In this document: positions 19,115-61,899 of the stretch, piece by piece | Position numbering within the stretch: position 1 is the stretch's first letter | Layout of the letters: each line of letters opens with the position of its first letter | From: Methylotenera sp. | Lineage (GTDB): Bacteria > Pseudomonadota > Gammaproteobacteria > Burkholderiales > Methylophilaceae | Assembly: GCA_013141075.1 (NCBI GenBank) | Contig: JABFRQ010000002.1 | Location: 124,001-188,000 of the forward strand | Reading direction: 5' to 3' | Length of the DNA: 64,000 bases | Notes under the pieces: generated by a model | Seen by the model: only the letters and a program-made list of their open reading frames with translations | Told to the model about the DNA's origin: nothing | Databases searched by the model: none | Translations under genes and position numbers: made by a program

Positions 19115-19167
19115 AAACACATGCTCCAGCACCCGCATGGATACTGCCTCGCAGGGCATATGTTTTT
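19115..19167. repeat. Dispersed palindromic repeat, copy A
   Basis: This copy contains the family core GCATGGATACTGCC followed by TCGCAGGGCAT. Its ends ATGCTCC and GGGCAT are roughly inverted. It is almost identical to copy B at 19921-19974, and the two lie in the same direction around the DUF5710/GIY-YIG gene pair. Confidence 0.88.
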
Positions 19168-19234
19168 AGCATTTATGCATACTGTTATATAATCCTACTC
19201 TCTAAAATTACCATACCAACACATTAGGACAAAA

Positions 19235-19552
19235 ATGATCGCAAGTAGCAACATTGCTTTAAAAGTACCTTTCAATGAAAAAGACCAAGCAAAGTCGTTA
19301 GGGGCGCGTTGGAATGCGGAGGCTAAGCAATGGTATGTGCCGCAGGGTGTGGAGGCTGCGCCTTTTGAAAAGTGGTTTACCGATGCAACCAATGCAGCGC
19401 CTACGCATGCTGCGTCTAAGCCTGCGACGAAAACTATGCCGCAAGCCAGTGCAGGTGCCGCCACGCAAAATACGCCTTTAGGCGATGATATTGATGCCAT
19501 TAACGCACGATTGCGCGATGCTTATGAAGCGTTTGATGGTGATGCGTTTTAA
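19235..19552 (+). CDS. DUF5710-domain small protein
   Basis: This 105-residue protein begins with a domain of the type called DUF5710 (residues 7-47). It shows the VPFNEKDQAKSLGARWN and QWYVP signature known from the tails of conjugative primases and antirestriction-like proteins. The rest is Ala/Thr-rich linker and a short acidic helix (DIDAINARLRDAYEAF). It is not part of a larger mobile-element enzyme here. Eight bases separate it from the GIY-YIG-like gene, so the two are likely co-translated. DNA or nucleotide binding is suggested by the domain's usual partners, but no function is proven. Confidence 0.75.
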   Translation: MIASSNIALKVPFNEKDQAKSLGARWNAEAKQWYVPQGVEAAPFEKWFTDATNAAPTHAASKPATKTMPQASAGAATQNTPLGDDIDAINARLRDAYEAFDGDAF

Positions 19553-19558
19553 TACCCA

Positions 19559-19885
19559 ATGGCGCGCCGCAAGCACCACAATGTGTATGTGATTGAGCTA
19601 TCAAAAGACGTGCTGTTTGAGGGTAAGTTTAAAAAATGCAACCCCAATTACATTACAGGCAAACCCTGCGTGTATGTTGGCATGACAGGTTTAGACCCCG
19701 ATGTGCGTTTTGATAAACATAAGGCGGGCATTCAATCTAACCGATACGTAATGCAATATGGCTTGCGCTTGCTGCCAGATTTGTATGAGGGCTTTAACCC
19801 CATGACGTATGAGGAAGCCGCAAGTATGGAAGTTGAAATTGGCATTGATTTACGCAGCGCGGGATTTGGCGTTTGGCAGGCTTAG
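19559..19885 (+). CDS. GIY-YIG-like nuclease domain protein
   Basis: This 108-residue single-domain protein resembles the GIY-YIG nuclease fold. The first strand is NVYVIEL, the second motif reads CVYVGMTGLDPDVRFDKHKAG, and a Glu that may bind the metal occurs later (SMEVEIGIDLR). The arginine expected in helix 1 may be Arg in DVRFDKH. The motif is degenerate, so cleavage activity is uncertain. It pairs with the DUF5710 gene, and both lie between two repeat copies as a small cassette. Repair or mobile-element functions are the usual roles of such domains. Confidence 0.65.
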   Translation: MARRKHHNVYVIELSKDVLFEGKFKKCNPNYITGKPCVYVGMTGLDPDVRFDKHKAGIQSNRYVMQYGLRLLPDLYEGFNPMTYEEAASMEVEIGIDLRSAGFGVWQA

Positions 19886-19920
19886 CGCGCGTAACGCATT
19901 GCGCAAATGAAAATAGCTTA

Positions 19921-19974
19921 CAAACACATGCCCCAGCACCCGCATGGATACTGCCTCGCAGGGCATATGTTTTT
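19921..19974. repeat. Dispersed palindromic repeat, copy B
   Basis: This copy is near-identical to copy A, with the same flanking AAACACATG and CATATGTTTTTA. It lies 36 bp after the GIY-YIG-like gene. From here to 20106 no gene is seen, only AT-rich DNA at the 3' end of the P-type ATPase gene. Confidence 0.88.
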
Positions 19975-20106
19975 AACTTACAAAATGCTCATTACTAAAA
20001 AATATAGCTTTAAATTTTAATAGCCAAATTCATAAACGTAACATTTTTATCCATTTAAGCATTTCAAGTAATTTCAAAGTCTAGATTTTAATCCGCCACA
20101 ATTCAC

Positions 20107-22419
20107 TTAATTGTCTAAATTTCTTAAACGCAAAGCATTGGTGATTACCGATACCGAGCTAAAACTCATGGCTAGCGCTGCTATCATTGGCGAGAGCAAC
20201 CAACCAGTAAACGGGTAAAGTACGCCTGCGGCTAGCGGCACGCCGAGTGAGTTGTAAACAAAAGCGAACGCAAGGTTTTGTTTCATATTGGCAACGGTTT
20301 GTTCTGAAATTGTTCTTGCTTGGGCAATGCCGCGTAAATCACCTTTTACCAAAGTCACTTGCGCACTATTCATGGCAACATCTGTGCCTGTGCCCATCGC
20401 TACGCCAACATCGGCTTTGGCTAAGGCTGGCGCATCGTTAATGCCGTCACCTGCCATCGCCACAACGCGGCTTTCACGTTGCAGTTTATCTACTAGCGCC
20501 AATTTATCAGCAGGTGTAATTTCACCATACACCTCATCAATACCTAGCTTGGCGGCAACCGCTTTTGCGGTGGTTAAGCCATCACCCGTTGCCATAATCA
20601 CCCGTATACCAAATGATTTAATTTTAGCCAAGGCTTCTACCGTACTGGGTTTAATGGGGTCAGATACCGCCAACAAGCCCGCCAACTGGCTATCAACGGC
20701 AAGTAGCATCACGCTAGCGCCTTCAACACGTAAAGCTTCAGCCTGCAATTTTATCGCTTCAATAGATACGCCTAGTTGCGCCATTAAGGCCGCGTTGCCA
20801 AGTGATAATTGCTTGCCTTCAACAATGCCGCGCACACCAATGCCAGTGCTTGATTCAAACGCTTTGGCTTTACTTAGCACTAAACCTCGTTCTAACGCGG
20901 CTGTAACAATGGCATGCGCTAACGGGTGCTCGCTGCCTTGATCAAGGCTAGCAGCTAAGTGCAATACTTCATTTTCACTATAACCTGCGGATGCAACTAC
21001 GCTATTAAAGCGTGGCTTGCCTTCGGTTAATGTGCCTGTTTTATCTACAATTAACGTATCAATTTTACGAAAATTCTCAATCGCCGCCGCATCACGAAAC
21101 AGCACGCCTTGCGTGGCGGCCTTGCCAGTAGCCACCATAATTGACATCGGCGTGGCCAGCCCAAGCGCACACGGGCAAGCAATAATAAGCACGGCAACAG
21201 CATTGATTAAGCCATACACCCAGCTTGGCTGTGGCCCAAAAAAACCCCAAGCAAAAAATGTAAGTAAGGCAACGCTCACAACTGTTAGCACAAAATAACC
21301 TGCTACCTGGTCTGCCATGCGCTGCATTGGCGCTCGTGAGCGCTGTGCTTGCACCACCATTTGCACAATGTTGGCCAACACTGTTTGCGAGCCAACTTTT
21401 TCTGTGCGCATCACCAGCGCGCCAGTGGTGTTAAGCGTTGCGCCGATTAACTTATCGCCCATGCGTTTGGTCACAGGCACTGGCTCGCCAGTGAGCATAG
21501 ATTCATCCACCGCGCTGCTACCCTCAATCACCACGCCATCAACAGGCACTTTTTCACCTGGTCGCACACGTAGCATATCACCCACATGCACATGCGTTAG
21601 TGGAATATCTTCCTCAAGGCCATCAGCATCGATACGCCGCGCTGTTTTGGGTGCTAAACCCAGCAAAGATTTAATTGCCGCAGAAGTTTGCGAACGCGCT
21701 TTAAGCTCTAAAATTTGACCAAGCAAAGTGAGAGAAATAATCACCGCAGCCGCCTCAAAGTAAACTGAAACGCGCCCCATAGACATAAATGACGCAGGAA
21801 AAACACTAGGCGCAACAGTCGCCACAACGCTGTAAACAAAGGCTGCTGAAGTGCCAAGCCCAATCAAAGTCCACATATTTGGGCTGCGGTTAATAATAGA
21901 ATGCACGCCGCGCTGAAAAAACGGCCAGCCTGCCCACAGCACAATTGGTAGCGTAAGTACTAGCTCAATCCAACTTTGTGTTGCCATTTCAAACCATTGT
22001 AAACGGTGGCCTAGCATCGCTAAAACAGTCACAATCACCGTTAAAGGCAAGGTCCAAATAAACCGCTGTTTAAAATCAACTAACTCTGGGTTTTCACCTT
22101 CTTCGAGGGTCGGCATTTCAGGCTCTAACGCCATGCCGCATTTTGGGCAAGCGCCTGCGTGATTTTGCCGCACTTCTGGGTGCATCGGGCAGGTGTAAAC
22201 CAAGCCAACGCTATTAATTGGCTTGGTTGCTACTGCTGCGGGAGTTTTATACGCCAATGAATATTTGGCGGGATTATCAATAAATTTGGCTTTGCACCCT
22301 GCACTGCAAAAATAAATAGATTTGCCTTCATGTTGTGAAATATGAGGCGATTGCTCGGTGACCACCATGCCGCATACAGGGTCTATTAGTGCGCACAATT
22401 CTGTATGGTGCATGTTCAT
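20107..22419 (-). CDS. copA: Copper-type P1B ATPase with YHS and heavy-metal-binding N-terminus
   Basis: This 770-residue inner-membrane pump exports monovalent copper or a similar soft metal. The order is a YHS domain (DPVCGM at 13-18, ending near 53), then a CPMHP...CPKCGM heavy-metal-binding motif (77-96), then eight membrane helices. The transmembrane metal site is CPC (415-417), the phosphorylated Asp459 is in DKTGT, the TGE loop is at 310-312 and GDGIND lies in the nucleotide domain. It lacks a classic GMxCxxC domain, so it belongs to the YHS-type group. It is the last gene of a minus-strand run; its neighbours are small envelope proteins. Silver or cytochrome-oxidase copper delivery are alternatives. 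Confidence 0.9.
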
Positions 22420-22451
22420 TTAACTGACCATCTCAAATTTGGCAATTTGTG

Positions 22452-22868
22452 CTAATTACGGCGTTTCCCTTTACGATTATCACGATGCTCATCTCTACGA
22501 TCATCATGCTCATTATATTCACCATGGCGCTCGCGATATTGCGGCACGTATTCATTGTTGTACCAATTATCTTGCACAAAATAAACGCGCTCGCCACACG
22601 CGTTATATTTATAACAATGTTTACGCCAATTTTTGGCATGACCTGGTGGCACACGCATATAAATTGGCTCACGCTCAACATATACGCGCTCAACCACTCT
22701 TGGTTGTCGGTAAATCACTCGCGGCTGAGGATAAGGATAATCTCCAATATCGATTCGACCATAAAACCCTGGCTGACCAACACTCACTGAAACGCCAACA
22801 TCGGCAGCAATTGCTGCTTTGGTAAAACCACAAGCGATTATCGCAGCTGCTATTAGCAATTTTTTCAT
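22452..22868 (-). CDS. Secreted charged protein of unknown function
   Basis: This protein of 138 residues starts at ATG 22868, thirteen bases after an AAGGAG box; an upstream frame extension to 22895 is ignored because the ribosome site lies inside it. The signal peptide MKKLLIAAAIIACGFTKAAI is cleaved near AAIA|AD. The mature protein has a Pro/Tyr/Arg-rich stretch (RVIYRQPRVVERVYVEREPI), two Cys (HCYKYNACG) that may form a disulfide, and a very charged Asp/Arg/His tail. Short proteins of this shape are common in betaproteobacterial envelopes, but no function is known to me. Confidence 0.7.
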   Translation of the reverse strand: MKKLLIAAAIIACGFTKAAIAADVGVSVSVGQPGFYGRIDIGDYPYPQPRVIYRQPRVVERVYVEREPIYMRVPPGHAKNWRKHCYKYNACGERVYFVQDNWYNNEYVPQYRERHGEYNEHDDRRDEHRDNRKGKRRN

Positions 22869-22906
22869 GTTAAAACTCCTTAAACTCTTACGCATTTTCG
22901 AATAAT

Positions 22907-23527: not shown

Positions 23528-23561
23528 TACGTATTCTCCGTGTTGAACTTTTAACCCACGC

Positions 23562-23771
23562 CTATCGCAAATCAGTTTTACAAGTATTTATGCCTAATAA
23601 TCTATAAGCTGGGCAAAAGCTAAATAACCCTGTAGCCATTACAACCAAGCCTAGCCAGCCCCAAACGCCAATAACGCCTTGCAGCATAAGGCCTATCAAG
23701 ACAAAGCCAATTATGATTCTTAAAATACGATCTAAACCGCCAACATTTACCTTCATCTTCTTCATCATCAA
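23562..23771 (-). CDS. DUF2892 small membrane protein
   Basis: This 69-residue protein matches the DUF2892 pattern: N-terminal NVGGLDRILRIIIG, two hydrophobic helices and the tail FSFCPAYRLLGINTC. The family is often fused to, or beside, rhodaneses (as in YgaP). An AAAGGAG box lies four bases before tandem ATGs at 23771 and 23768. It is 5 bp after the YqjK-like gene and likely in the same transcript. Confidence 0.85.
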   Translation of the reverse strand: MMMKKMKVNVGGLDRILRIIIGFVLIGLMLQGVIGVWGWLGLVVMATGLFSFCPAYRLLGINTCKTDLR

Positions 23772-23776
23772 CTCCT

Positions 23777-24100: not shown

Positions 24101-24108
24101 TGATTGAT

Positions 24109-24501: not shown

Positions 24502-24508
24502 ACGCTAA

Positions 24509-24823: not shown

Positions 24824-24912
24824 GATATTTCTCCTTTTAATATTCTTGTTTAATATTCTTGTTATGTCGTTTCTACTGCATTAACTCAATATAAATCAAC
24901 AACAAAACGCTA

Positions 24913-25683: not shown

Positions 25684-25779
25684 TGCAAGCAATCTACTGA
25701 ATACAACACTTTAAGTAAATTCGTGCTAGCACGTAAGGGCAAGCCCTTATATGCTTAGCTTTATGCACAGCTTAAAGCA

Positions 25780-25828
25780 ACAGGCCTGCGAGCCGCTCTG
25801 GTATTGCCTCGCAGGGCAGTGCTTTTTG
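25780..25828. repeat. Dispersed palindromic repeat, copy C
   Basis: This copy has GCCTGCGAGCCGCTC followed by TATTGCCTCGCAGGGCAGT. It shares the right half of the family (GCCTCGCAGGGCA) while the left half resembles the palindrome at 37517-37558. Confidence 0.75.
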
Positions 25829-29135: not shown

Positions 29136-30512
29136 ATGAAACTCACATTTCTTGGTGCAACGGGCACGGTAACAGGCTCAAAATATTTGCTTACTTGTGA
29201 CACTAAAACAGGTGAAGAAATACGTATCATGGTTGACTGCGGCCTATTTCAAGGCCTTAAACAATTGCGGCTAAGAAACTGGGCGGCGTTACCAATCAAC
29301 CCCAAAGAAGTGCACGCGATGATACTCACACACGCGCACATTGACCACAGCGGCTACTTACCACTATTAGTAAAAAATGGTTTTTCTGGCAAAGTGTATT
29401 GCACCGAAGCCACGCGTGATTTATGTGAGGTTTTGTTGCTAGATTCGGCCTATTTACAAGAAGAAGAGGCTAAATATGCCAACAAAGGCGGCTTCTCAAA
29501 ACACAGCCCAGCATTGCCGCTTTATACACAAGAAGACGCGCAAAAAGCAATTGCGCTACTTACGCCAGTCGCTTATGAGCAAGAAATCAACTTGGGTGAT
29601 GGCTTAACAGCAAGGCTTGCGCCTAGCGGGCATATACTTGGTGCGGCTTTTGTGCGCATTCAAGACCATAAAACTTCAATACTTTTTTCTGGCGATATTG
29701 GCCGACCTAACGACATTTTAATGAAAGCACCCGTGCGCATCAAACAGGCCGATTACTTGGTGCTTGAGTCTACTTACGGCAATCGCTTACATGAAAAAAC
29801 CGACCCGAAAATAAAACTTGCTGAAATCATCAATCAAACGGTTAATCGTAAAGGCGTTGTGCTTATTCCCGTATTTGCGGTGGGCCGCGCGCAAGAGCTG
29901 CTTTATTATATTCATCTGTTAAAAGCTTCAGGCGCAATTGCAAACAACACGCCCGTTTATCTTAATAGCCCAATGGCGGTAGATGCAACCGCGATATTTA
30001 ATCATTTTAAAAATGAACATCGGCTAACGCCAGAGCAAAGCCACGCCTTATGTCACACGGCGCATATCGTTAATAATGTTGAAGAATCTAAGCGATTGAA
30101 TAACACCAAAGGCCCTATGATTATTCTATCTGCAAGCGGCATGGCGACTGGCGGGCGTGTTGTGCATCATTTAAAAGCCTTTGCGCCAGACCCCAAAAAC
30201 ACTATTTTATTTGTAGGATTTCAAGCCGCAGGAACGCGCGGCGCGGCCATGTTAGAAGGCGCTGACAGCGTTAAAATTCATGGGGAATACGTGCCAGTAC
30301 GCGCCAATGTTGAATATGTGCCCAATTTATCGGCACATGCAGATTATGCTGAAATCATTAGCTGGTTAGGCGGCTTTGAACGCGCCCCTAAAAAAACCTT
30401 CATTACCCATGGCGAGCCTATTGCGGCCGATGCCATGCGCCTGCATGTTGAAGAACAATTACACTGGCAAACAATTGTGCCAGATTATCTTGAAACCGTA
30501 AATTTAGACTAA
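29136..30512 (+). CDS. Metallo-beta-lactamase/beta-CASP exonuclease-like RNA processing protein
   Basis: This 458-residue protein is of the CPSF73/Ysh1-like group found in many bacteria. The metal site is THAHIDHSG (about residue 66), more ligands lie in PSGHILGAAF and FSGDIGR, and the beta-CASP part has STYGNR and the terminal THGEP. Bacterial members are thought to act on RNA; the substrate is not established. It sits 25 bp after the stress protein gene. In many bacteria homologues lie with universal stress and nitroreductase genes under FixJ/FNR-type control, so the association here is notable. Confidence 0.88.
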   Translation: MKLTFLGATGTVTGSKYLLTCDTKTGEEIRIMVDCGLFQGLKQLRLRNWAALPINPKEVHAMILTHAHIDHSGYLPLLVKNGFSGKVYCTEATRDLCEVLLLDSAYLQEEEAKYANKGGFSKHSPALPLYTQEDAQKAIALLTPVAYEQEINLGDGLTARLAPSGHILGAAFVRIQDHKTSILFSGDIGRPNDILMKAPVRIKQADYLVLESTYGNRLHEKTDPKIKLAEIINQTVNRKGVVLIPVFAVGRAQELLYYIHLLKASGAIANNTPVYLNSPMAVDATAIFNHFKNEHRLTPEQSHALCHTAHIVNNVEESKRLNNTKGPMIILSASGMATGGRVVHHLKAFAPDPKNTILFVGFQAAGTRGAAMLEGADSVKIHGEYVPVRANVEYVPNLSAHADYAEIISWLGGFERAPKKTFITHGEPIAADAMRLHVEEQLHWQTIVPDYLETVNLD

Positions 30513-30551
30513 TAATTTTCATGCGAATACGCAGCATATAATGTGCTAGAT

Positions 30552-30600
30552 AAAAACACTGCCCTGCGAGCAAGCATCTATGCGGTTCCCAGAGCATTAT
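30552..30600. repeat. Dispersed palindromic repeat, copy D
   Basis: ACTGCCCTGCGAGCAAGCATCT and then ATGCGGTTCC form the family pattern in reverse orientation. It lies in the 118-bp convergent gap between the beta-CASP gene and nnrD. Confidence 0.75.
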
Positions 30601-30630: not shown

Positions 30631-31506
30631 TCACGTTTTATGGCGTAGCGTATTCATCACCTTGCGTGCTTCTAAAATCACCTCTGACGCCGTCAAACCA
30701 ACTGGCCCCACACCATTTTCAACCAGCGCATCAGCTGCTGCGCCATGCACATAAACACCTAATTTTGCCGCGTCTAGCCCACTTAAACCTTGCGCCATTA
30801 AGCTACCAATAATGCCGCTAAGTACATCACCAGTGCCGCCGCTGGCAAGCCCAACATTACCCGTAGTATTGATAAACCAATTACCATCGTGATGCGCACA
30901 AACCGTGTCAGCACCTTTTAATACGCAAGTTGCATGCAATGATTTAGCTAAGTTAAGCGCACTTGCAATACGATTTTGTTGAATATTATCGCTGTGAGTA
31001 GCGAGTAATCTAGCGGCCTCGCCCGCATGTGGCGTGATAACAGTTTCAGCCGTGCGCTTGTAAACCGCGTTGGCTAAATGTGCGTGGCTGGCGATTAAAT
31101 TAAGCGCATCAGCATCCAACAAAATGGGAATGTTTTTCGCAAGCCAACTTTCTAGCAATTTAATGGCAGGCTCTGATTGCCCAAGTCCAGGGCCAATCAC
31201 AACGCAATCAAGCTGCGTTAATTGCGTAATTGCAGTCAGTGAACGCAGCATAATTTCTGGCTGGTAAATATCAACACTAGGTGCGTCATCACATAACATG
31301 GCTGCATACACGCGGCCTGCCCCACAATGCAACGCCGCCCGAGCGGCCAGAAAAACCGCGCCTACCATGCCAGTAGCACCGCCAATAATTGCCACACTGC
31401 CAAACACGCCTTTGTGCGCATCACTATTACGTAACGGCAAAACAGCTTGAAATAAGCTTTGCACGAGTAGGTTTGAATTGATTAGCTCAGTTTTAATGAT
31501 GCGCAT
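30631..31506 (-). CDS. nnrD: ADP-dependent NAD(P)H-hydrate dehydratase
   Basis: This 291-residue enzyme dehydrates the damaged hydrated form of NAD(P)H. It belongs to the YjeF C-terminal (carbohydrate kinase-like) family: GSVAIIGGATGMVGAVFLAARAALHCGAGRV at the N-terminus, LDADALNLI, TPHAGEAARLL and the final nucleotide site GTGDVLSGIIGSL. The epimerase (NnrE) domain is not fused, so that activity is elsewhere. It is a single gene on the minus strand, convergent with the beta-CASP gene. Confidence 0.92.
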   Translation of the reverse strand: MRIIKTELINSNLLVQSLFQAVLPLRNSDAHKGVFGSVAIIGGATGMVGAVFLAARAALHCGAGRVYAAMLCDDAPSVDIYQPEIMLRSLTAITQLTQLDCVVIGPGLGQSEPAIKLLESWLAKNIPILLDADALNLIASHAHLANAVYKRTAETVITPHAGEAARLLATHSDNIQQNRIASALNLAKSLHATCVLKGADTVCAHHDGNWFINTTGNVGLASGGTGDVLSGIIGSLMAQGLSGLDAAKLGVYVHGAAADALVENGVGPVGLTASEVILEARKVMNTLRHKT

Positions 31507-33624: not shown

Positions 33625-34965
33625 TTACGAGATTTTATGAGCATGGCTGGAAGCCCCATGGATACTGGCTTGCAGGGCATCTCTTTTAATAGGCTTATTG
33701 TACCGCGTAATGGCAAAATCTTCACTTTGAATTGCAGGTTTCTCGTTCGCCACTAAATCAGCCAATACTTGTGCGGAGCCGCATGCCATCGTCCAGCCCA
33801 GCGTGCCGTGGCCTGTGTTGAGCCATACGTTATTATAGGCGCTCGATGCTTGACCAATAATCGGTGTGCCATCTGGCGTCATGGGGCGTAAACCTGTCCA
33901 AAATAAAGCTTTAGATACGTCGCCACCGTTAGGAAATAAGCCATTCAACACCATTTCAAGTGTTTCACGTCGGCGCGGGTTGAGGCTTAAATCAAAACCC
34001 GCTAACTCTGCCATGCCGCCTACCCTAATTCTGTCGTCAAAGCGCGTAATCGCCACTTTGTAAGTTTCATCCATCACGGTAGAAATTGGCGCGGCGGCGC
34101 TGTTAATCACAGGCACAGTGAGCGAATAGCCTTTTACGGGATACACAGGGATTTGCAAGCCTAACCCCAGCATTAGTTCGCGCGAGTAGCTACCAAGCGC
34201 CACTACATATTGGTCGGCTTGTAACGTTTCTTTGCCAGCATCGGTGATAATTTCTACGCCATTAAGCTTGCCATTTGCAGTGAGTAAACGCTCAATTTTT
34301 ACATTATGCATAAATTTAACGCCCAACTTTTGTGCTTCAATGGCTAAATTAGTGGTAAACAATTGGCAATCGCCAGTTTCATCATGCGGCAAGCGTAAGC
34401 CGCCTAACAGCTTGTCTTTCACAGTTGCCAACGCTGGCTCTGCGCGCACGCAACCGTCGGGGTCTAAATGCTCGAACGGCACGCCTAAGCGCGATAACAC
34501 GGCAATGTCTTTAGCTTCAGCATCCAGCTGTTTTTGCGTGCGAAATACTTGCAATGTGCCCTGTGTGCGACCTTCATAGGCAATGCCTGTGTTAGTGCGC
34601 AATTCATCTAAGCAGTCGCGGCTATATTCTGCCAGCCGCACCATGCGCTCTTTGTTAATGCTGTATCTGGCCGTGGTGCAATTGCGCAATAATTGCATGG
34701 TCCATTGCAGCTGCCACAGCGTAAAATCTGGCTTAACGGCCAGCGGAGAATGCCGCTGAAGCAGCCATTTAAGCGCCTTAGCAGGCACACCAGGCGCAGC
34801 CCATGGCGCAGAATAACCAGGGGATACTTGCCCTGCATTAGCAAAGCTGGTTTCTAAACCTACGGCTGGCTGGCGGTCAATTACTGTGACTTCAAAACCC
34901 TTTTGTGCCAAGTAATACGCGCTTGTTACGCCAATTACGCCTGAACCTAAAATTAGCACTTTCAT
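33625..34965 (-). CDS. dadA: D-amino acid dehydrogenase
   Basis: This 446-residue FAD enzyme oxidises D-alanine and related D-amino acids to 2-oxo acids and ammonium, feeding electrons to the quinone pool at the inner membrane. It has the N-terminal dinucleotide fold [21 protein letters not shown] and the C-terminal [14 protein letters not shown] region. The GTG just before the ATG is ignored; ATG 34965 follows an AGAGG box. The last 18 or so codons (from about [12 protein letters not shown]) are not DadA-like. They are a copy of the dispersed palindromic repeat, which has replaced or extended the natural end. Confidence 0.92.
33637..33690. repeat. Dispersed palindromic repeat, copy E, inside the dadA 3' end
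   Basis: The core CCCCATGGATACTGGC and TTGCAGGGCAT is in the 3' coding end of dadA. In frame on the minus strand it encodes the residues [14 protein letters not shown]. The copy gives the gene its stop codon region, so the natural C-terminus may have been changed. Confidence 0.8.
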
Positions 34966-35143
34966 CACAACCTCTTGTTTTTATGCTTATGAAGTATTAA
35001 ACATATTTTATGGGCTATTTACGCAAATAAAATCTAAATTTTTAATTTATTTAATATAAATAGTCTAATTTATTTAAATTTATAGTTGTTATTCACTTAA
35101 TTTTAGACACATAATAGTTTTTACAAAAATTAAAGAAAAAAAT

Positions 35144-37480: not shown

Positions 37481-37516
37481 AGCAACTTTTCATTAAAAAC
37501 TGCTCGAGAAAAAAAC

Positions 37517-37558
37517 ACTGCCCTGAGAGCCGCTCTAGGAGCGGCTCTCAGGGCAGTA
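37517..37558. repeat. Near-perfect palindrome related to the dispersed repeat family
   Basis: Arms ACTGCCCTGAGAGCCGCTC and GAGCGGCTCTCAGGGCAGT are perfect inverted copies with a 4-bp loop. It shares the CTGCCCTG end with the family and the CCGCTC part with copy C. It sits between the aldehyde dehydrogenase and the convergent pseudogene and may act as a transcript end for both sides. Confidence 0.82.
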
Positions 37559-37592
37559 CTAAAGAGTTCATGCGTTACAAGCTGCAATATAA

Positions 37593-42040: not shown

Positions 42041-43444
42041 ATGTCAAACTCGGACTACATAAAACTGCCGAATCTCAGCAATTACTGGGTGCCATTTACG
42101 GCTAATCGGCAGTTTAAAGCAATGCCTAGGCTTTTTAAAGCGGCCAAAGGCAACTATTACACAACTATTGATGACCGCGAAATTTTAGATGGCACTGCAG
42201 GCTTATGGTGCACACCTGCTGGTCATGGTCGCGAAGAAATCGCTAGCGCCGTTGGCAAACAATTGCTCACGCTTGATTATGCCCCTGCTTTTCAAAGTAG
42301 TCACCCATTAGCATTTGAAGCAGCAAACCGCGTGGCAGAGTATATGCCTGCTGGTTTGGATAGAATATTTTTCACTAATTCAGGCTCAGAATCTGCCGAC
42401 ACAGCGTTAAAAATCGCACTGGCATATCATCGCGTATGTGGTAACCCATTAAGAAACAAGTTAATAGGCCGCGAGCGCGGTTACCACGGTGTGAATTTTG
42501 GTGGCATTGCCGTGGGTGGCATTGCAGGTAATCGCAAGGCATTTGGCAATGGCTTGGCGGGCGTTGACCATATTCGCCACCCGCTTGATATTGCAAAAAA
42601 CGCCTTCACCAAAGGCGTGCCTGAAGATGGCGGCATAGCGCTAGCAAATGAATTCGAACAACGTATTCTTACATTACATGACCCCTCTACTATCGCCGCG
42701 CTCATTGTAGAACCCATGCAAGGCTCGGCTGGCGTGATTATTCCACCAACTGGTTATTTAAAACGATTACGCGAAATTTGCGACAAATACGGTATTTTGC
42801 TGATTTTTGATGAAGTGATTACAGGTTTTGGGCGTTTGGGCACCAAATGGGGTGCAGATTATTTTGGTGTGACGCCAGACATTTTAACTTGCGCTAAAGG
42901 ACTAACCAACGGCGTGGTGCCGATGGGCGCGGTGGCAGTAAAGCGTGAAATTTACGATGCGTTCATGGAAAAATCCCCCGCGGGCGCCATTGAATTGCCA
43001 CATGGCTACACGTATAGCGCTATACCCATTGCCTGCGCGGCGGCCATTGCTACCTTAGATATTTTTTCTACTGAACAACTAGAAAACCGCGCCGCAGGTT
43101 TAAGTGCTTATTTTGAGCAAGCCGCACACAGCTTAAAGGGTTTGCCGATGGTAAAAGACATTCGCAACATAGGATTAGTTGCTGGCATTGAGTTTGAGCC
43201 GATTGCAGGCAAAGCTGGCGCGTTTGCATTCGCCACCTATTTAAAATGTTACGAACTAGGCTTGCATGTGCGCTACACAGGCGACATTATTGCCATTTCG
43301 CCGCCACTCACCATAGAAAAACTCGAGATAGACCGTATTTTTAACACTTTGGCGGATGCGATTAAATTTGTCGCAAGTCAAGGCGAAGCAGGTTTAAATG
43401 CAAGCAATTATCTTAAAAATGAACAACAATGGGCTGAACAATAA
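42041..43444 (+). CDS. Omega-amino acid/polyamine aminotransferase (class III)
   Basis: This class-III PLP transaminase of 467 residues is similar to beta-alanine/omega-amino acid:pyruvate and putrescine (SpuC-type) aminotransferases. NYWVPFTANRQFKAMPRLF at the start is a hallmark of this group, the PLP Asp is in FDEVITGFGRLG and the PLP Lys in CAKGLTNG. The AGGA box eight bases before ATG 42041 favours that start over ATG 42032. It is the first gene of a three-gene run with the semialdehyde dehydrogenase and the ligase. The amino donor may be beta-alanine, GABA or an intermediate of polyamine breakdown. Confidence 0.88.
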   Translation: MSNSDYIKLPNLSNYWVPFTANRQFKAMPRLFKAAKGNYYTTIDDREILDGTAGLWCTPAGHGREEIASAVGKQLLTLDYAPAFQSSHPLAFEAANRVAEYMPAGLDRIFFTNSGSESADTALKIALAYHRVCGNPLRNKLIGRERGYHGVNFGGIAVGGIAGNRKAFGNGLAGVDHIRHPLDIAKNAFTKGVPEDGGIALANEFEQRILTLHDPSTIAALIVEPMQGSAGVIIPPTGYLKRLREICDKYGILLIFDEVITGFGRLGTKWGADYFGVTPDILTCAKGLTNGVVPMGAVAVKREIYDAFMEKSPAGAIELPHGYTYSAIPIACAAAIATLDIFSTEQLENRAAGLSAYFEQAAHSLKGLPMVKDIRNIGLVAGIEFEPIAGKAGAFAFATYLKCYELGLHVRYTGDIIAISPPLTIEKLEIDRIFNTLADAIKFVASQGEAGLNASNYLKNEQQWAEQ

Positions 43445-43490
43445 ATGCCCTGCAACCCGCATGGATATTGGCTTGCAGAGCATGCCTTTA
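43444..43490. repeat. Dispersed palindromic repeat, copy G
   Basis: ATGCCCTGCAACCCGCATGG followed by ATATTGGCTTGCAGAGCATGCC. It begins at the last base of the aminotransferase stop codon and fills most of the 70-bp gap in the operon, so its hairpin is present in the message. Confidence 0.88.
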
Positions 43491-55597: not shown

Positions 55598-55616
55598 AGC
55601 CACAAAAAATGTGGCT
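55598..55616 (-). terminator. Terminator-like hairpin in the thrS leader
   Basis: On the minus strand AGCCACA TTTTT TGTGGCT is followed by TTTTATTGTTTT, a rho-independent-like structure, about 25 bases upstream of the thrS ATG. It lies between the only promoter space and the gene, so it could be an attenuator or an operator-like stem for autoregulation. It is not a transcript end of a known upstream gene, because the upstream gene is divergent. Confidence 0.6.
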
Positions 55617-55760
55617 CATCAACTAACTAAAAAATCACCTAGGCGCAATTATCGCATATCGCGCCCTATCACTGCAATTTCATCATAAAAATTAGCATTT
55701 ACGTAAGACTATTACTTAATTGTTCGCGCAATTGTGCTTGCTGTGGCAAAATCCATATTG

Positions 55761-56981
55761 ATGAAAAATATTAGCCTAAAATCGAATCAGTGCATTGCAA
55801 CCTGCCCCGCCTGCGGCTTGCTTTGTGACGATATATTGCTTGAAAATAATCAAAATGTAATTAAAGTGATGGCGAATGGTTGCGCAAAGAGCATCCCGTT
55901 TTTCGAGCAAAAATTGAATGATGCTACGCCCCGAATTGCTGGCGAACCTGCAACCTTGGCGCAAGCCTTGGCTAGAGCAGCGCAAATACTAAAACAAGCA
56001 CAGCAACCGTTATTTACTGGCTTAAGCACCGATGTTGCAGGCTTTCGCGCCATTTATAATCTTGCGCAAAAAACCAGTGGCATTCATCAGCAAAACATGC
56101 AACACATGAATGCCGCCAGCACAGCGCGCAATATAAGGGTATTGCAAAGCACCGGCTGGCAAACGACAACGCTAACGGAAGTGAAAAATCGCGCAGATGT
56201 GATTGTGTGCATAGGCAGTGATATTGTGTCGCATAATCCACGTTTTTTTGAGCGTTTTGTCGATGTCGACGGCATGTTTATTTCTGCCAAAAATCGTCAG
56301 CTAATTGTGTTAGGTGAATCTAAAAATAATGGTGTGATTAAAAGCGATGCTCTGGAGGCCGCATGGATACTGCCTTGCAGGGCAGATGATTTACCCTCGG
56401 TAACCATTGCGCTACGTGCATTAGTGGCGGGTAAACCACTAAAAGCTACAGAAGTTGCGGGCATTAAGGTAAGTGATTTACAAAGTGTTGCTGACAAACT
56501 AAAAGCTGCAAAATATGCAGTTCTAGCATGGGTGTCAAAGGATTTTGATTATCCACACGCAGAACTCACCATTCAAAACATTACTGAAACGGTAGCAATT
56601 TTAAATCAAACAACCCGCGCAGCTGGCTTAGCCCTAGGCGGTAGCGATGGTGATACCAGCGCAAATAACGCTAATACTTGGCTCAGCGGCTTTGCATTAA
56701 ATAATGATACGATTGAGCATGATTGTGTGGTTTGGGTGAATAGTTTTAATGCAGAAAAATTGCCACCAAATACAGATAAACCGCTTATTGTGTTAGGCAA
56801 TACAAACTGCCAATTTGAAACCACGCCAGATGTATTTATCCCAACAGCTAAGCCAGGCTTGGATTGTAGCGGTACCCTGTTTCGGGTGGATTCATCTGTA
56901 ATATTGCCGTTGAAAAAATTACGTGAGAATAATTTGCCCACTTTGAGTGAAGTGGTGAGCGGAATTGAGGCATTGCTATGA
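55761..56981 (+). CDS. fhcB: Formyltransferase/hydrolase complex subunit B
   Basis: This 406-residue protein is the FhcB subunit, related to the molybdopterin subunit of formylmethanofuran dehydrogenase but used for formyl hydrolysis in methylotrophs. The N-terminal Cys set CIATCPACGLLC would bind an iron-sulfur cluster. I start at ATG 55761. Around residues 196-210 the sequence (ALEAAWILPCRADDLP) is encoded by a copy of the dispersed repeat. FhcB overlaps fhcA by four bases (ATGA). In methylotrophs this complex hydrolyses formyl-methanofuran (or its analogue) to formate. The divergent neighbour is thrS. Confidence 0.92.
   Translation: MKNISLKSNQCIATCPACGLLCDDILLENNQNVIKVMANGCAKSIPFFEQKLNDATPRIAGEPATLAQALARAAQILKQAQQPLFTGLSTDVAGFRAIYNLAQKTSGIHQQNMQHMNAASTARNIRVLQSTGWQTTTLTEVKNRADVIVCIGSDIVSHNPRFFERFVDVDGMFISAKNRQLIVLGESKNNGVIKSDALEAAWILPCRADDLPSVTIALRALVAGKPLKATEVAGIKVSDLQSVADKLKAAKYAVLAWVSKDFDYPHAELTIQNITETVAILNQTTRAAGLALGGSDGDTSANNANTWLSGFALNNDTIEHDCVVWVNSFNAEKLPPNTDKPLIVLGNTNCQFETTPDVFIPTAKPGLDCSGTLFRVDSSVILPLKKLRENNLPTLSEVVSGIEALL
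56348..56388. repeat. Dispersed palindromic repeat, copy H, inside fhcB
   Basis: GCCGCATGGATACTGCCTTG and CAGGGCAGA match copy A at 26 of 29 bases. It lies in frame in the fhcB coding region and encodes ALEAAWILPCRADD. Confidence 0.85.
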
Positions 56982-58645
56982 TTACGCTCCTCAAAAACGG
57001 CAAACTTTACGACCCCGCGCACAATAAAGACGGCGTGGTTGAAGATATTTACATCCGCAATGGGCATATAATTGCCAAGCCAATCAGCGCCGAAAAAATC
57101 AATCAAACTTTTGACTTAACAGGCAAAGTGGTCATGGCGGGCGCGATTGATATGCACAGCCATATTGGCGGTGGCAAAGTGAATATTGCGCGCATGATGT
57201 TGCCAGAATTTCAAGAAACGCGTGGTTACAGCGAGCCTGAAGCGCATATTTGTACGCCAAATTGTTCACACAATGCCACACCCAATACCACCGATACTGG
57301 CTTTCGCTACATCGAAATGGGCTACACCGCCGCGTTTGAGCCAGCGATTATGCCAATTAACGCCCGCCAAGCGCACCTAGAGATGGCCGACACGCCAATG
57401 ATAGACAAAGGTGGATACGCCATGTTGGGCAATGATGATTACTTTTTGCGCTTGTTAAGTAGCGGTGCTGACCAAAAAGCCATTAACGATTACGTGGCTT
57501 GGACTTTGCACGCTACGCAAGCCATTGGCATAAAAGTGGTGAACCCTGGCGGCATTTCTGCGTTTAAATTTAACCAACGTCGACTCAATTTAGATGAAAA
57601 TAATGTGCATTATCAAGTCACGCCACGTGATATTTTAAAAAGCCTCAGCCGCGCGGTAAATGAGCTGGGCATTGCCAAGCCGCTGCATGTGCATTGCAAT
57701 AACTTAGGTGCAGCAGGTAACTTTCAAACCACTTTAGACACCATGGGCGCATCAGATGGCTTGCCGATGCACCTCACGCACGTTCAATTTCACAGCTACG
57801 GTACGGAAGGTGATAAAAAGTTTTCATCCGCTGCCGCGCAAATTGCCGAAGCATTAAATAAAAACAAGCATATCACCGCCGATGTTGGGCAAATTTTGTT
57901 TGGTCAAACTGTCACAACATCAGGCGACAGCATGATGCAGCACTTGAACGCCCGCCACGCCAACCCAAAAAAATCGGTGATTATGGATATTGAATGCGAT
58001 GCAGGCTGTGGCGTGGTACCGTTTAAATATCGCGACCAAAATTACGTAAACGCGCTGCAATGGGCTATAGGCTTAGAGCTATTTTTGAGCGTGGAAGACC
58101 CGTGGCGCATCTTTTTAACCACCGACCACCCAAACGGCGCGCCATTCACCAGCTACCCACATTTAATCCGCTTGCTGATGGACAAATCTTTCAGAAATGA
58201 GGCCTTCGCCAAGCTCAATTTAGACGCGCAAGCAATGAGTAACTTAACCAGTTTAAACCGCGAATACAGCTTATATGAAATCGCCATTATGACCCGCGCA
58301 GGCGCAGCCAAGCTCATCGGCCTGAATAATTGCGGGCATTTAGGTGCTGGTGCGCAAGCTGATATTACCGTTTATACTGATAATCCAGACCGTGAAGCGA
58401 TGTTTGCTAAACCAGATTACGTATTTAAAAATGGCGAATTGGTCGTAAAAGATGGCAAAGTGGTTAAAGTAGTTTGGGGTGCAACGCATGTAGTTAAGCC
58501 TGCGTTTGATATTGCTGTAGAAGTAGATTTAAAAAAATACTTCGACAAATATCATACAATTCAACTAGATAACTATAAAATTAACAACAATGAAATTCAT
58601 GACAACGGTCGTGGAAAAATAGTCACTCACAGCAAAGGAGAGTAA
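56978..58645 (+). CDS. fhcA: Formyltransferase/hydrolase complex subunit A
   Basis: This 555-residue subunit has the amidohydrolase fold and is the hydrolase that releases formate from the formylated carrier. Metal ligands are visible at His60 and His62 (DMHSHIGGG); later segments include LHVHCNNLG, THVQFHSYG and the Asp/His in TTDHPNGAPF. The binuclear zinc site appears complete. A gene for a flavin-binding protein follows one base after its stop. Confidence 0.95.
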   Translation: MITLLKNGKLYDPAHNKDGVVEDIYIRNGHIIAKPISAEKINQTFDLTGKVVMAGAIDMHSHIGGGKVNIARMMLPEFQETRGYSEPEAHICTPNCSHNATPNTTDTGFRYIEMGYTAAFEPAIMPINARQAHLEMADTPMIDKGGYAMLGNDDYFLRLLSSGADQKAINDYVAWTLHATQAIGIKVVNPGGISAFKFNQRRLNLDENNVHYQVTPRDILKSLSRAVNELGIAKPLHVHCNNLGAAGNFQTTLDTMGASDGLPMHLTHVQFHSYGTEGDKKFSSAAAQIAEALNKNKHITADVGQILFGQTVTTSGDSMMQHLNARHANPKKSVIMDIECDAGCGVVPFKYRDQNYVNALQWAIGLELFLSVEDPWRIFLTTDHPNGAPFTSYPHLIRLLMDKSFRNEAFAKLNLDAQAMSNLTSLNREYSLYEIAIMTRAGAAKLIGLNNCGHLGAGAQADITVYTDNPDREAMFAKPDYVFKNGELVVKDGKVVKVVWGATHVVKPAFDIAVEVDLKKYFDKYHTIQLDNYKINNNEIHDNGRGKIVTHSKGE

Positions 58646-58646
58646 A

Positions 58647-59306
58647 TTGAGCATTTATTACGGCAAAGAACAACGCGCTTTGCAGGCGCAATTTGGTACC
58701 GAAAAAATGGCTGAGCGCATCGAGCAATTAGCCAGCCATAATGAGTTTAACGATGATGCCAAAGGTTTTATTGAGCACAGCGAAATGTTCTTTTTAACCA
58801 CAATTGATGACAAAGGGCGCCCGACCGTTTCATACAAAGGTGGCGACATAGGCTTTGTGAAAGTACTTGATGCTAATACACTAATATTTCCAAGTTACGA
58901 TGGCAACGGCATGTTTTTAAGCATGGGCAACATTATTGGCAATGCGCAAATCGGCATGTTATTTATCTCGTTCGAGCGCCCACATCGCATTCGCGTGCAA
59001 GGCACAGCGAGCATTTCGCAAGATCCAGAATTTCTGGCACATTACAAAGAAGCTGACTTTGTGGTGACAGTTAAGCTAGAAGAATTGTGGCAAAACTGCC
59101 CAAGATACATTCCAAAATATGAAAAAATACGCGATTCACGCTATGTTCCACGCGCAGATTGCGATACACCTCTGGCTGAGTGGAAGCGCGTTGATTTGCT
59201 ACAAGACGTGCTAGCACCCGCAGATTTAGCCAAAGCACAGGCCAAAGGCACTATAGACATTATGGAATGGGTGGGCAAAATTCAGGCAGGCGCGGATGAC
59301 GCTTAA
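58647..59306 (+). CDS. Pyridoxamine-phosphate-oxidase-like flavin-binding protein inserted in the fhc operon
   Basis: This 219-residue protein starts at TTG 58647, behind AAAGGAGAG. It has the PPOX split-barrel pattern: MFFLTTIDDKGRPTVSYKGGDIGFVKV, a middle IGMLFISFERPHRIRVQGTASI, and a C-terminal Cys-containing segment (NCPRYIPKYEKI). FMN or F420-like cofactor binding is the family norm. It is not one of the four known Fhc subunits, yet it lies between fhcA and fhcD with 1-bp and 6-bp gaps, so it is co-expressed. Its role may be in carrier biosynthesis, redox protection or an unrelated reaction. Confidence 0.82.
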   Translation: MSIYYGKEQRALQAQFGTEKMAERIEQLASHNEFNDDAKGFIEHSEMFFLTTIDDKGRPTVSYKGGDIGFVKVLDANTLIFPSYDGNGMFLSMGNIIGNAQIGMLFISFERPHRIRVQGTASISQDPEFLAHYKEADFVVTVKLEELWQNCPRYIPKYEKIRDSRYVPRADCDTPLAEWKRVDLLQDVLAPADLAKAQAKGTIDIMEWVGKIQAGADDA

Positions 59307-59312
59307 AGCTTT

Positions 59313-60209
59313 ATGTTATTAAACGGTATTGCCATTGACGACACCTTCGCCGAAGCATTCAACATGCGGGCGACGCGCATTATTATCACTGCGCTTAACC
59401 TAAAATGGGCATACCACGCCGCCAACGCAATGACAGGCTTTGCCACCAGTGTAATTGGCTGCGGCGTTGAAGCTGGTATTGAGCGCGAATTATCAGCAGA
59501 TGAAACGCCCGATGGCCGCGCTGGCATAAGCGTACTAATGTTTGCAATGGGTAGCAAAGTACTCATGCAACAGCTCGAGACGCGTATGGGGCAATGCATA
59601 CTCACCTGCCCTACCGCAGCCGCGTTTGCTGGAATTGACGCTGAAGACCAAATTAGCTTAGGCAAGCATTTACGCTATTTTGGTGATGGCTACCAAACAT
59701 CTAAACTCATCAGCGGAAAAAGATATTGGCGTATACCAGTGATGGATGGCGAGTTTCTCGTGCAAGAAACCACTGGCATGGTGCGCGCGATTGGTGGCGG
59801 TAACTTTTTGATTCTAGCTACCTCACAAACAGCCGCCTTAAATGCCGCCGAAGTTGCCATTGAGGCCATGAAACAAGTGCCGAATGTCATCATGCCTTTC
59901 CCAGGTGGCGTGGTGCGTAGTGGCTCAAAAGTCGGCAGTAAATACCCAAAAATGTTCGCCTCAACTAACGACGCATTTTGCCCAACTTTAAAAGGTTTGG
60001 TGAAGACTGAACTCAGTGATGAAATTGAAAGCGTAATGGAGATTGTGATTGATGGCTTAAACTTTGAAGACATCGCGCTATCAATGAAAGTTGGCATAAA
60101 AGCCATTTGCAGCTTGGGTGTAAGTAGCGGCGTAAAACGCATTTCTGCGGGTAATTATGGTGGGAAACTTGGCCCGCACCATTTTAAATTGCATGAGATT
60201 TTAAAATGA
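59313..60209 (+). CDS. fhcD: Formylmethanofuran:tetrahydromethanopterin formyltransferase
   Basis: This 298-residue enzyme moves the formyl group between tetrahydromethanopterin and methanofuran (or its analogue). It matches the Ftr/FhcD family: DDTFAEAFNMRATRIIITA at the start, GCGVEAGIERELSADETPDGRAG, and the end ISAGNYGGKLGPHHFKL. Length is normal. It overlaps fhcC by four bases. Confidence 0.96.
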   Translation: MLLNGIAIDDTFAEAFNMRATRIIITALNLKWAYHAANAMTGFATSVIGCGVEAGIERELSADETPDGRAGISVLMFAMGSKVLMQQLETRMGQCILTCPTAAAFAGIDAEDQISLGKHLRYFGDGYQTSKLISGKRYWRIPVMDGEFLVQETTGMVRAIGGGNFLILATSQTAALNAAEVAIEAMKQVPNVIMPFPGGVVRSGSKVGSKYPKMFASTNDAFCPTLKGLVKTELSDEIESVMEIVIDGLNFEDIALSMKVGIKAICSLGVSSGVKRISAGNYGGKLGPHHFKLHEILK

Positions 60210-60871
60210 CAGCGCTCACATTTACACTGAAAAAAAATCCACCTTTTAAAGTGAATTGTAGCAATCTTACGCCCAATAAATTGGCTGGATTATCCATTGA
60301 AAAAATTCAAGAAATCACTTTAAATAATAACAATAACGTCATTGATTTATTTGAAATTAAAGGCTCTGATTATGAAAACATTATCTTCAAAAACAGTAAC
60401 GAACAATTAGATTATATTGGCCACAAAATGACACGCGGGCAAGTGACAATTGAAGGCAATTGCGGAGACTTTTTAGGCGCAAATATGCAAGGCGGCACAA
60501 TTATTTGCCACGGCAATGCTCACGATAGAGTTGGTGACTTAATGCGCCGCGGGTTAATTTTGGTTGAGGGAAATTCTGGCGATTATTGTGGTAGCCGCAT
60601 GATTGCAGGCACCATAGGCATTTATGGTAAAGTTGGGAAATACGTTGGCTTCTCTATGAAACGTGGCTCAATTTTATTAAAAACCCCAGCTGAGTTGCAC
60701 GCTACTCTTCAAAATTGCGGCGCACACACACTACCATTTTTATCATTATTATTAAGCTCATTTAAACCATTTTCCACTTCATTTAACAAAGTTAAATCTA
60801 ATCGAATTCAACGCTATGCGGGCGATTTAGCATGTAATGGTAATGGCGAAATTTTAATCATTTTAGATTAA
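60206..60871 (+). CDS. fhcC: Formyltransferase/hydrolase complex subunit C
   Basis: This 221-residue subunit has the beta-helix repeat of the FwdC/GltB-like domain: GNCGDFLGANMQGGTIICHGNAHDRVG and GNSGDYCGSRMIAGTIGIYG. It completes the FhcABCD complex. The A/T-rich tail after residue 180 and an unusual Ser-rich stretch (LLLSSFKPFSTSFNK) suggest a relaxed C-terminus. No terminator is evident in the 71 bp before trhO. Confidence 0.95.
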   Translation: MTALTFTLKKNPPFKVNCSNLTPNKLAGLSIEKIQEITLNNNNNVIDLFEIKGSDYENIIFKNSNEQLDYIGHKMTRGQVTIEGNCGDFLGANMQGGTIICHGNAHDRVGDLMRRGLILVEGNSGDYCGSRMIAGTIGIYGKVGKYVGFSMKRGSILLKTPAELHATLQNCGAHTLPFLSLLLSSFKPFSTSFNKVKSNRIQRYAGDLACNGNGEILIILD

Positions 60872-60942
60872 CTTTGGCTTATAGTTTTCGCTTATAGAAT
60901 GCAAGTGTTAAAATGGCACTTTTACCCTAACTAGCTTGCTTC

Positions 60943-61899
60943 ATGTCCAACACAAACCCTACTAAAACCCCTACGTTTCTAACAGCTGCGCTATATAAAT
61001 TTGTTAGCCTGCCAAATTACACTGCCCTGCAAGCGCCTATCCATGCGGCTTGCGAGGCACATTGTATCAAAGGCACTCTGCTGCTGGCTTCAGAAGGCAT
61101 TAACGGCACCATCGCTGGTTTGCCTGAAAACGTTCAAAGCGTACTCAAATTTTTGCGTACTGACGCGCTATTTGAAGGCCGTTTTGCCGATTTAGAGCAT
61201 AAAGAATCATTTGCTTCTGAGCATCCGTTTTACCGCATGAAAGTGAAACTGAAAAAAGAAATCGTCACTTTGGGTGTACCAGGCGTAAGCCCAACCAACA
61301 AAGTGGGCACTTATGTAAAAGCTGAAGATTGGAATACACTTATCAGCGACCCTGAGGTTTTTTTGATTGATACGCGTAACGATTATGAAGTGGATATTGG
61401 CACATTTAAAGGTGCGATTGACCCTAAAACGACGACATTTCGCGAGTTTCCTGCGTTCATTAAAAACAATTTTGATAAAACCAAACACAAAAAAGTCGCC
61501 ATGTTTTGCACAGGCGGTATTCGCTGCGAAAAAGCTTCGTCATACATGATGGATCAAGGTTTTGAAGAAGTTTTTCACCTGCAAGGCGGCATTTTAAAAT
61601 ACCTAGAAACCGTACCTGAAGCACAAAGTATGTGGCAAGGTGAATGTTTTGTATTTGACCAACGCGTGGCGGTTAAGCACAATTTAGAGGTTGGCGAATT
61701 TGACCAATGCTATGCCTGTCGCCATCCGCTTTCACCAACAGAAATGCAAAGTGTAGAGTATACACCTGGCATTTCATGCCCTTATTGCTACAATAAAATC
61801 TCCGAAGAAAAACGCGCCCGCTTAACTGAACGCCAAAAACAAGTCATTTTAGCCAAGCAACGCGGTGAAGTTCACATTGGTGAAAAACAAAAAAAATAA
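60943..61899 (+). CDS. trhO: tRNA uridine hydroxylase of the rhodanese family
   Basis: This 318-residue protein is TrhO/YceA, which forms 5-hydroxyuridine in tRNA wobble positions. It has an N-terminal acylphosphatase-like domain with [10 protein letters not shown], a rhodanese domain with the active Cys in [16 protein letters not shown] and a C-terminal Cys-rich end ([13 protein letters not shown]) that may bind zinc. The stretch [13 protein letters not shown] near residue 30 is encoded by a copy of the dispersed repeat. A gene of unknown role follows with a 1-bp overlap. Confidence 0.92.
61020..61062. repeat. Dispersed palindromic repeat, copy I, inside trhO
   Basis: CTGCCCTGCAAGCGCCTATC and CATGCGG match the reverse complement of the family core (TGCCCTGCGAG...TATCCATGCGG). 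It lies in frame near the start of trhO. Confidence 0.75.

Follow-up and report, generated by a model that had tools for sequence, protein, structure and literature searches.

The stretch analysed here (the window) comprises 64,000 nucleotides of a Methylotenera sp. genome (assembly GCA_013141075.1, contig JABFRQ010000002.1, positions 124,001 to 188,000), in which a short palindromic repeat recurs between genes and within a few of them. An earlier note on this DNA had listed nine related sites, three of them in frame within dadA, fhcB and trhO. A covariance model of the repeat, designated R1, was built from 39 copies, including the window sites matched at 43432, 19108, 19915, 30542 and 25768 and not those at 56334, 33630 and 37501. 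R1 recovers eight of the nine sites at E <= 1.2e-8 as clear members of one family; the ninth (61005, in trhO) scores low, at 25.0 bits (E 0.0004 for 100 kb), and is backed by the comparison with relatives described below. Both the repeat family and the positions listed for it are thus confirmed. The copies and the genes that they enter, with open reading frame (ORF) coordinates where these are needed, are as follows.

19118..19166, plus strand: intergenic repeat copy, about 50 nt behind the ORF 17851-19065 (R1 67.7 bits at 19108)
19925..19973, plus strand: repeat copy between convergent genes (R1 66.8 bits at 19915)
25778..25826, plus strand: intergenic repeat copy with a variant loop, between divergent genes according to the ORF caller, with a match in the terminator scan (R1 50.9 bits at 25768)
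30552..30600, minus strand: repeat copy between the convergent genes 29136-30512 (plus) and 30631-31506 (minus) (R1 53.8 bits at 30542)
33639..33687, plus strand: repeat copy forming the C-terminal codons of dadA (R1 41.7 bits at 33630)
33625..34968, minus strand: dadA-like gene (FAD-dependent oxidoreductase), the end of which runs into the repeat (Pfam DAO, 4.2e-81)
37511..37559, minus strand: subfamily copy with a 20-bp stem, another loop and a T-run, between convergent genes (R1 40.1 bits at 37501)
43442..43490, plus strand: repeat copy directly behind the stop codon of an aminotransferase gene (43444) (R1 68.9 bits at 43432)
55734..56981, plus strand: ORF given as fhcB by the earlier note (homologues at loci L001 and L002, 68 and 63% identical, respectively)
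56344..56392, plus strand: repeat copy within fhcB, in frame, SDALEAAWILPCRADDL (R1 53.6 bits at 56334)
60943..61899, plus strand: trhO-like gene (UPF0176_N and rhodanese; Pfam)
61015..61063, minus strand: weak repeat-like segment in the N-terminal region of trhO (R1 25.0 bits)

The repeat family

In an ungapped alignment of the 39 copies, the repeat is defined as an imperfect palindrome of 49 nt consisting, in order, of an A-run, a stem of up to 20 bp, an 11-nt loop (GCATGGATAYT) and a T-run. The stem arms approximate ATGCCCTGCRAGCC and GGCTYGCAGRGCAT, and the loop is among the best-conserved portions. The 14-mer GCATGGATACTGCC, which the sites had been said to share, is exact at only three of them (19135, 19942 and 56361); with up to three mismatches it occurs 11 times versus 5.8 expected (2 of 100 shuffles reach 11), and GCAGGGCA occurs 11 times versus 3.3 expected (0 of 100 shuffles). 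Folding of the idealised consensus gives -39.6 kcal/mol (z -9.5), and two intergenic copies with the main loop are weaker than this, at -16.9 and -16.7 kcal/mol. The subfamily copy at 37511..37559 folds at -42.3 kcal/mol (z -7.2). Further members of this subfamily were seen at L182, L188, L190 and L193 (L numbers denote fetched loci, G000 the genome under study and other G numbers genomes of the genus); they have another loop, and some copies of the subfamily show near-perfect stems and CGAG or CTCG beside the T- or A-run, which is possibly an older end tag. Rfam contains no family that matches the repeat within the 64-kb window, and a search of the open-access PMC library for palindromes in Methylotenera and repetitive extragenic palindromes (REPs) in the Methylophilaceae yielded no paper that deals with this family, as judged by titles and abstract openings.

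The host assembly comprises 2.48 Mb in 11 contigs and is about 90% complete. The genome-wide profile search that had been proposed was run with R1 and scored 150 candidates, of which 149 are matches, corresponding to at least 144 distinct sites, of which 25 lie in a tandem array and at least 119 are dispersed; 88 of the dispersed sites score at least 40 bits. Seven of the nine window sites are among the genome-wide matches listed, and those at 61005 and 37501 are missing from them, so the list is incomplete. Two regions of contig C1 (G000:C1:1-3900 and C1:55500-59700; L004 and L003) contain the same pair of repeat copies with their near flanks in opposite orientation, which suggests a segmental duplication or an assembly repeat. 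Two other long perfect or near-perfect palindromes, different in sequence and with arms of 28-29 bp, are present in the window at 15423-15491 and 11324-11395.

Placement behind genes

Placement was analysed in 74 stretches of the host genome around copies, with ORFs taken from a simple codon-usage caller. The 87 sites of at least 40 bits comprise 34 in tandem, 33 in convergent and 4 in divergent positions, 12 within ORFs and 4 without an assigned class; for comparison, 20 of the window gaps of at least 60 nt are tandem, 6 are divergent and 3 are convergent. For 52 of the 67 copies in tandem or convergent positions, a stop codon is no more than 60 nt away (median 23, distances being approximate). 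Coding regions are avoided, since only 12 of the 87 strong copies are found in genes versus a coding density of 0.86.

Of 77 intergenic copies, taken irrespective of score, 59 have a T-run (at least four T in six positions) on one strand, 60 have one on the other and 76 have one on at least one strand, compared with 26% of random intergenic 12-mers. A stable GC stem with a T-run behind genes, as in intrinsic terminators, is present over these 77 copies as a group, while single copies vary. A simple terminator scan, which permits loops of 3-8 nt only and does not fit the main 11-nt loop, ranks 37516-37558 (the subfamily copy) first and touches partial stems at 25800, 30559, 19145 and 19952. Judged from anatomy, placement and T-runs, the majority of the copies resemble intrinsic terminators that would work in both directions. 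If they instead displayed a sense-strand RNA element in 3' untranslated regions, such as a protein-binding loop with GGA, the high conservation of the loop would be accounted for, but neither strand is preferred with respect to the gene upstream (15 sense versus 19 antisense, P 0.61), and orientation makes this reading scarcely credible.

Copies within reading frames

In total, 19 copies lie within ORFs, including 12 that reach at least 40 bits, and they are in frame within conserved protein genes, as described for Rickettsia palindromic elements (RPEs). Pfam assignments cover four window proteins; the other genes are named from their sequences. The strong copies lie in what we take to be glnE, a glutathione-transferase-like gene, a sensor kinase gene, a neighbour of trpE/pabB, polA (linker), a murU-like nucleotidyltransferase gene, hscA, mutL (linker), an oxidoreductase gene, the long ORF L012, fhcB and dadA. 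The lower-scoring ones are presumably in mtnA, an S-adenosylmethionine (SAM)-methyltransferase gene, trpE, htpG, aroE, trhO and the short ORF L036. The consensus is free of stop codons in all six frames, and one frame, which reads approximately as the alanine-rich HALRANIHAARRA, is used by 9 of the 12 strong copies (P 1.3e-5 before multiplication by six for the choice of frame). Hairpins are weaker in genes than between them (-14.2 and -13.6 versus -20.0 and -21.1 kcal/mol; P 0.010 and 0.0004).

The fhcB ORF has no Pfam match at E <= 0.001. Its copy agrees with a family member at 34 of 39 bases, compared with 35 at L001, 31 in G032 and only 19 in two outgroups; the earlier note had reasoned that a coding match shared by relatives lacking the repeat would indicate chance similarity, and this is not the pattern observed here. 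The length of fhcB is the same in 22 of 31 relatives, three are 4 residues longer, one is 2 residues shorter, and two records in which a second element (described below) is nested are 19 residues longer. From this comparison, the fhcB copy is judged to be real and old, and common to L001, G032 and, split by the second element, G019/L002. In trhO, the length is identical in 29 of 29 relatives, and the segment matches at 33 of 39 bases in the host, 30 at L001 and 17-25 in the 29 other relatives. As the random mean is 18, the likeness is native in part; the only other high value, that of L001, comes from a repeat-bearing locus, and here too the match is not shared by relatives without the repeat. 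The trhO copy is weak by score and supported by the comparison, which sets the host and L001 apart. The dadA protein is conserved up to an RY motif, after which the tails are variable (18 relatives). In G032 it stops at RY, and hairpin-like sequence was seen by eye downstream; most likely, the dadA copy is a 3' repeat that the ORF has entered. Thus, of the three genes said to carry the repeat in frame, fhcB has an internal copy and dadA a C-terminal tail, and trhO has a length-neutral but weak one. The proposed alignment with relatives revealed an unchanged length in trhO and, for most relatives, in fhcB, and a 3' repeat in a variable region in dadA.

Fourteen genes were compared with orthologues from eight congeners. 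Net gains were found in glnE (5 or 6 residues relative to 4 of 4 orthologues) and the murU-like gene (11 to 15 residues relative to 7 of 8 relatives, the eighth having a different long insert there), and polA is longer than in 4 of 5 relatives. Length is unchanged in hscA (5 of 5 relatives), htpG (4 of 4), mtnA (4 of 4), aroE (3 of 3), the SAM-methyltransferase gene (4 of 4) and the sensor kinase gene (4 of 4, two of these relatives carrying repeat-like sequence themselves), and differs by 0 or +1 residue in trpE. The glutathione-transferase-like gene differs by +4, -19 and +1 residues, the copies in mutL and the trpE-neighbour gene lie in variable regions, and the C-terminal copy in the oxidoreductase gene has no right-hand anchor for a length comparison. 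At the site of the murU-like copy, the corresponding gene of G033 (L204) contains an in-frame insert of other sequence, about 35 residues long, and this looks like a permissive site for unrelated inserts.

Base identity was scored over a 39-nt core as the highest value obtained with any of 66 intergenic members, allowing 9 bases of slack, mutL, polA and the trpE-neighbour gene being left out. The host copies share 31-36 of 39 bases (12 genes), whereas the orthologues mostly share 16-25; the random null has a mean of 18.4 (sd 1.8) and a maximum of 39, which is probably a sample that landed on a repeat copy. Intermediate values were obtained for the kinase in G019 (31) and G041 (27), mtnA in G013 (30), the oxidoreductase in G037 (28), the SAM-methyltransferase in G019 (27) and trpE (20-27); together with the values for fhcB (L001 and G032) and trhO (L001) given above, these suggest shared ancestry of the in-gene copies. 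The presence of in-gene copies in independent assemblies argues against misassembly.

These values bear on whether the in-gene matches are chance likenesses of native gene sequence. The native length and conserved residues of trhO, aroE, htpG and mtnA, and the mere 25 bits of trhO, would agree with this. It is nevertheless very unlikely as a general account, given the gap between host and orthologue identities, the net insertions in glnE and the murU-like gene, and the 26 genus genomes without a match at E <= 0.01 (subject to search filters that lose some weak matches); chance is largely refuted for copies of at least 40 bits, but may account for individual weak ones. Selection at many places for a DNA uptake or binding signal, reached in genes by substitutions, could likewise produce length-neutral copies, and no contiguous patches were detected that would contradict it. 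However, all six occurrences of CATGGATA in the 64-kb window lie inside the nine listed sites, none being free-standing, and the similarity spans about 39-49 nt, which leaves such a signal disfavoured and very improbable.

For trhO, htpG, hscA, the sensor kinase, mtnA and perhaps fhcB, we tentatively suggest another route, in which the repeat may overwrite partly similar stretches of native gene sequence at unchanged length and frame, acting as a short-patch 'sequence editor' of housekeeping proteins and not just as an inserting element, through template switching between repeat copies and genes at small matches. This reading is possible rather than probable.

The second element has a length of 57 nt (19 codons) with two hairpins recognised by eye (L226/L271, L216/L269, L002/L273, L270 and L298), and the host has a copy of its own (L272, G000:C11:223655-223713). 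A 98-base query containing it has matches in 29 of 52 genus genomes, a few of which cover only the part of the first repeat. At four loci in three relatives, sequence resembling the first repeat has the element nested within it, after CTGCAA or TTGCAA, and glnE of G023 seems to have received it as a clean in-frame insertion of 19 codons. For the 18 of 30 loci covered, Rfam gave no family for it at the gathering score.

Distribution, origin and related elements

R1 matches at E <= 0.01 were found in 26 of the 52 genus genomes, including the host, and in none of the other 26. The numbers of matches are at least 98 in both the host and G032, 97 in G044, 76 in G033, 72 in G031, 67 in G020, 64 in G013 and 22 in G019, and range from 1 to 14 in the other 18 genomes. 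In the family Methylophilaceae, 38 of 187 genomes, belonging to 5 of 24 genera, match at E <= 1e-4, with 27 candidates scored per listed genome. Behind the aminotransferase gene, where the host has the copy at 43442, R1 finds no match in G032, even with proteins about 89% identical on either side of the gap, and this copy-free gap fits a gain or a loss.

A search for a transposase of the REP-associated tyrosine transposase (RAYT) type, as the earlier note had recommended, gave a divided answer. No match to PF01797 was found in the host genome, which is about 90% complete, nor in G033 with its 76 repeat matches, but the domain is present in 30 of 52 genus genomes and is commoner in those with the repeat (21 of 26 versus 9 of 26, P 0.0017, rank correlation 0.38); a RAYT may therefore have had a role. 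The association holds among genomes of at least 2 Mb (16 of 21 with the repeat versus 6 of 16 without, P 0.023) and is not significant for genomes with at least 20 repeat matches (6 of 8 versus 24 of 44, P 0.44), all of these statistics ignoring the relatedness of the genomes. Among 20 RAYT-type loci from relatives (20 of 76 listed places), one has an R1 copy. At this locus (L307, G044:C86), a RAYT-like ORF with a different palindrome of its own adjoins a copy of this repeat; the same locus also holds what we take to be an attC-like site.

These results bear on the view that the repeat is a selfish REP- or MITE-type element (miniature inverted-repeat transposable element), moved by a RAYT or another transposase, with no terminator role and a placement reflecting harmless sites. 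The patchy distribution, the very uneven copy number and the enrichment of PF01797 all favour it, and the REPs described in passages of PMC3733652 are placed alike. The T-runs at 76 of 77 intergenic copies and the strong stems exceed what such placement needs, however, and the absence of PF01797 from the host and G033, the single copy at 20 RAYT-type loci and the lack of significance at 20 or more matches are further difficulties. We regard this view as a serious alternative that falls short of an even chance. The opposite view, that the copies are ordinary terminators made alike by convergence or homogenisation and never mobile, agrees with their anatomy and position. It is unlikely, since a terminator loop need not be conserved as the 11-nt loop is, half of the genus genomes (26 of 52) have no match, and copies occur inside ORFs, one with a gain of 11-15 residues relative to 7 of 8 relatives.

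Integrons were considered as the spreading agent and rejected: integrases above the score cut-off are present in 30 of 52 genus genomes, including the complete, repeat-free G002, G003, G008 and G009, so that the relation is one of association only. An integron-like array in the host contains 25 weak repeat copies and lies near an integron integrase at G000:C5:22914-23876 (476 bits). L200 (G000:C5:10500-19000) and G000:C8:2774-17147 consist of A/C-rich tandem units of about 306 nt with weak repeat copies. L200 contains no open frame of 300 codons, and the ends of the tandem units are presumably attC-like.

We consider it likely that the repeat constitutes a dispersed palindromic family of the REP/RPE kind, most copies of which serve as bidirectional terminators spread by past copying, with a minority absorbed into ORFs. 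Behind genes, a hairpin of up to 20 bp with a T-run on either strand would act as an intrinsic terminator. The copies would have been spread by a copying process, probably a past one, in which a RAYT-type transposase of relatives may have taken part. A minority would have landed inside ORFs, mostly where the repeat is read as the alanine-rich peptide in a tolerant place, and would have survived because the consensus is stop-free in every frame, their hairpins having since weakened. Some of these would be net insertions, and others may have replaced native sequence at equal length, for which short-patch template switching, or conversion with a repeat copy as donor, would be the simplest route.

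Several observations weigh against this interpretation. The sites analysed were chosen by score, and the in-gene copies L008, L012 and L033 and five window copies are themselves members of the training set. The ORF caller missed at least one gene (17851-19065), so the distances to stop codons are approximate, and termination is predicted from sequence. The terminator scan, with its loops of 3-8 nt, flags none of the copies at 43442, in fhcB and in trhO; two tested window copies have only moderate folds (z -2.0 and -1.4), and the fhcB and trhO copies fold no better than shuffles. A test for compensatory changes gave values near those of shuffled alignments, namely 74.0% of cells paired versus 72.4% (27 of 500 shuffles as high), a covariation score of 0.120 versus 0.104 (40 of 500) and 8 pairs changed on both sides versus 9.4 (468 of 500); slid versions of the alignment pair at 30-41%. 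With respect to replacement, a run-length test brought out no contiguous conversion patches (P 0.05-0.85) and speaks neither for nor against it, the best single member over 69 columns sharing 27-35 of 39 core bases in 13 genes besides hscA (27 in trhO); hscA, whose match is one base shorter, was out of register in this test. Three distant fhcB relatives of the 31 are shorter by 12, 19 and 19 residues at the copy site, which leaves room for an old insertion. No transposase, target duplication, recent copy or other recent mobility was seen for the repeat, so that only the second half of the earlier description, 'active element with coding-compatible sequence', is borne out, by the open frames of the consensus and the preferred use of one of them.

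Among known systems, passages of PMC2229807 describe RPEs of 105-146 bp, with inserts in 19 reading frames, including an active guanylate kinase that carries one. The present family shares with the RPEs of those passages the occurrence of palindromes both between genes and in frame within conserved genes, but it is shorter than that size range (49 nt), betaproteobacterial, terminator-like and often length-neutral in genes. REPs are 20-40 bp palindromes of high copy number located mostly behind genes or between convergent genes, some of them inside ORFs, including those for DNA polymerase I and repair genes, according to passages of PMC3733652. The present repeat is likewise a short, high-copy palindrome placed mainly behind or between convergent genes and present in some ORFs, polA included; it differs in that the 39-copy consensus has no GTAG or CGTC end tag, CGAG standing near the stem in some copies only, and in that the search for a RAYT in the host assembly, which is about 90% complete, found none. 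The enterobacterial RU-1, RU-2 and RU-3 and the NEMIS elements are small non-autonomous repeats with open frames that are fused in genes (passages of PMC2759123 and PMC2229807). The RU units are longer (103-168 bp), and terminator-like placement is not described in the corresponding passages and abstract. Intrinsic terminators resemble the repeat in having a GC-rich stem and a T-run near stop codons, but here one family with a conserved loop is used more than 100 times and is also found inside genes.

In-frame repeats in conserved genes have already been described for Rickettsia and some REP-rich bacteria. The present results add a betaproteobacterial family that is terminator-like outside genes and a protein segment within them. 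If the length-neutral copies are replacements, a non-coding repeat could rewrite protein sequence without insertions or deletions.

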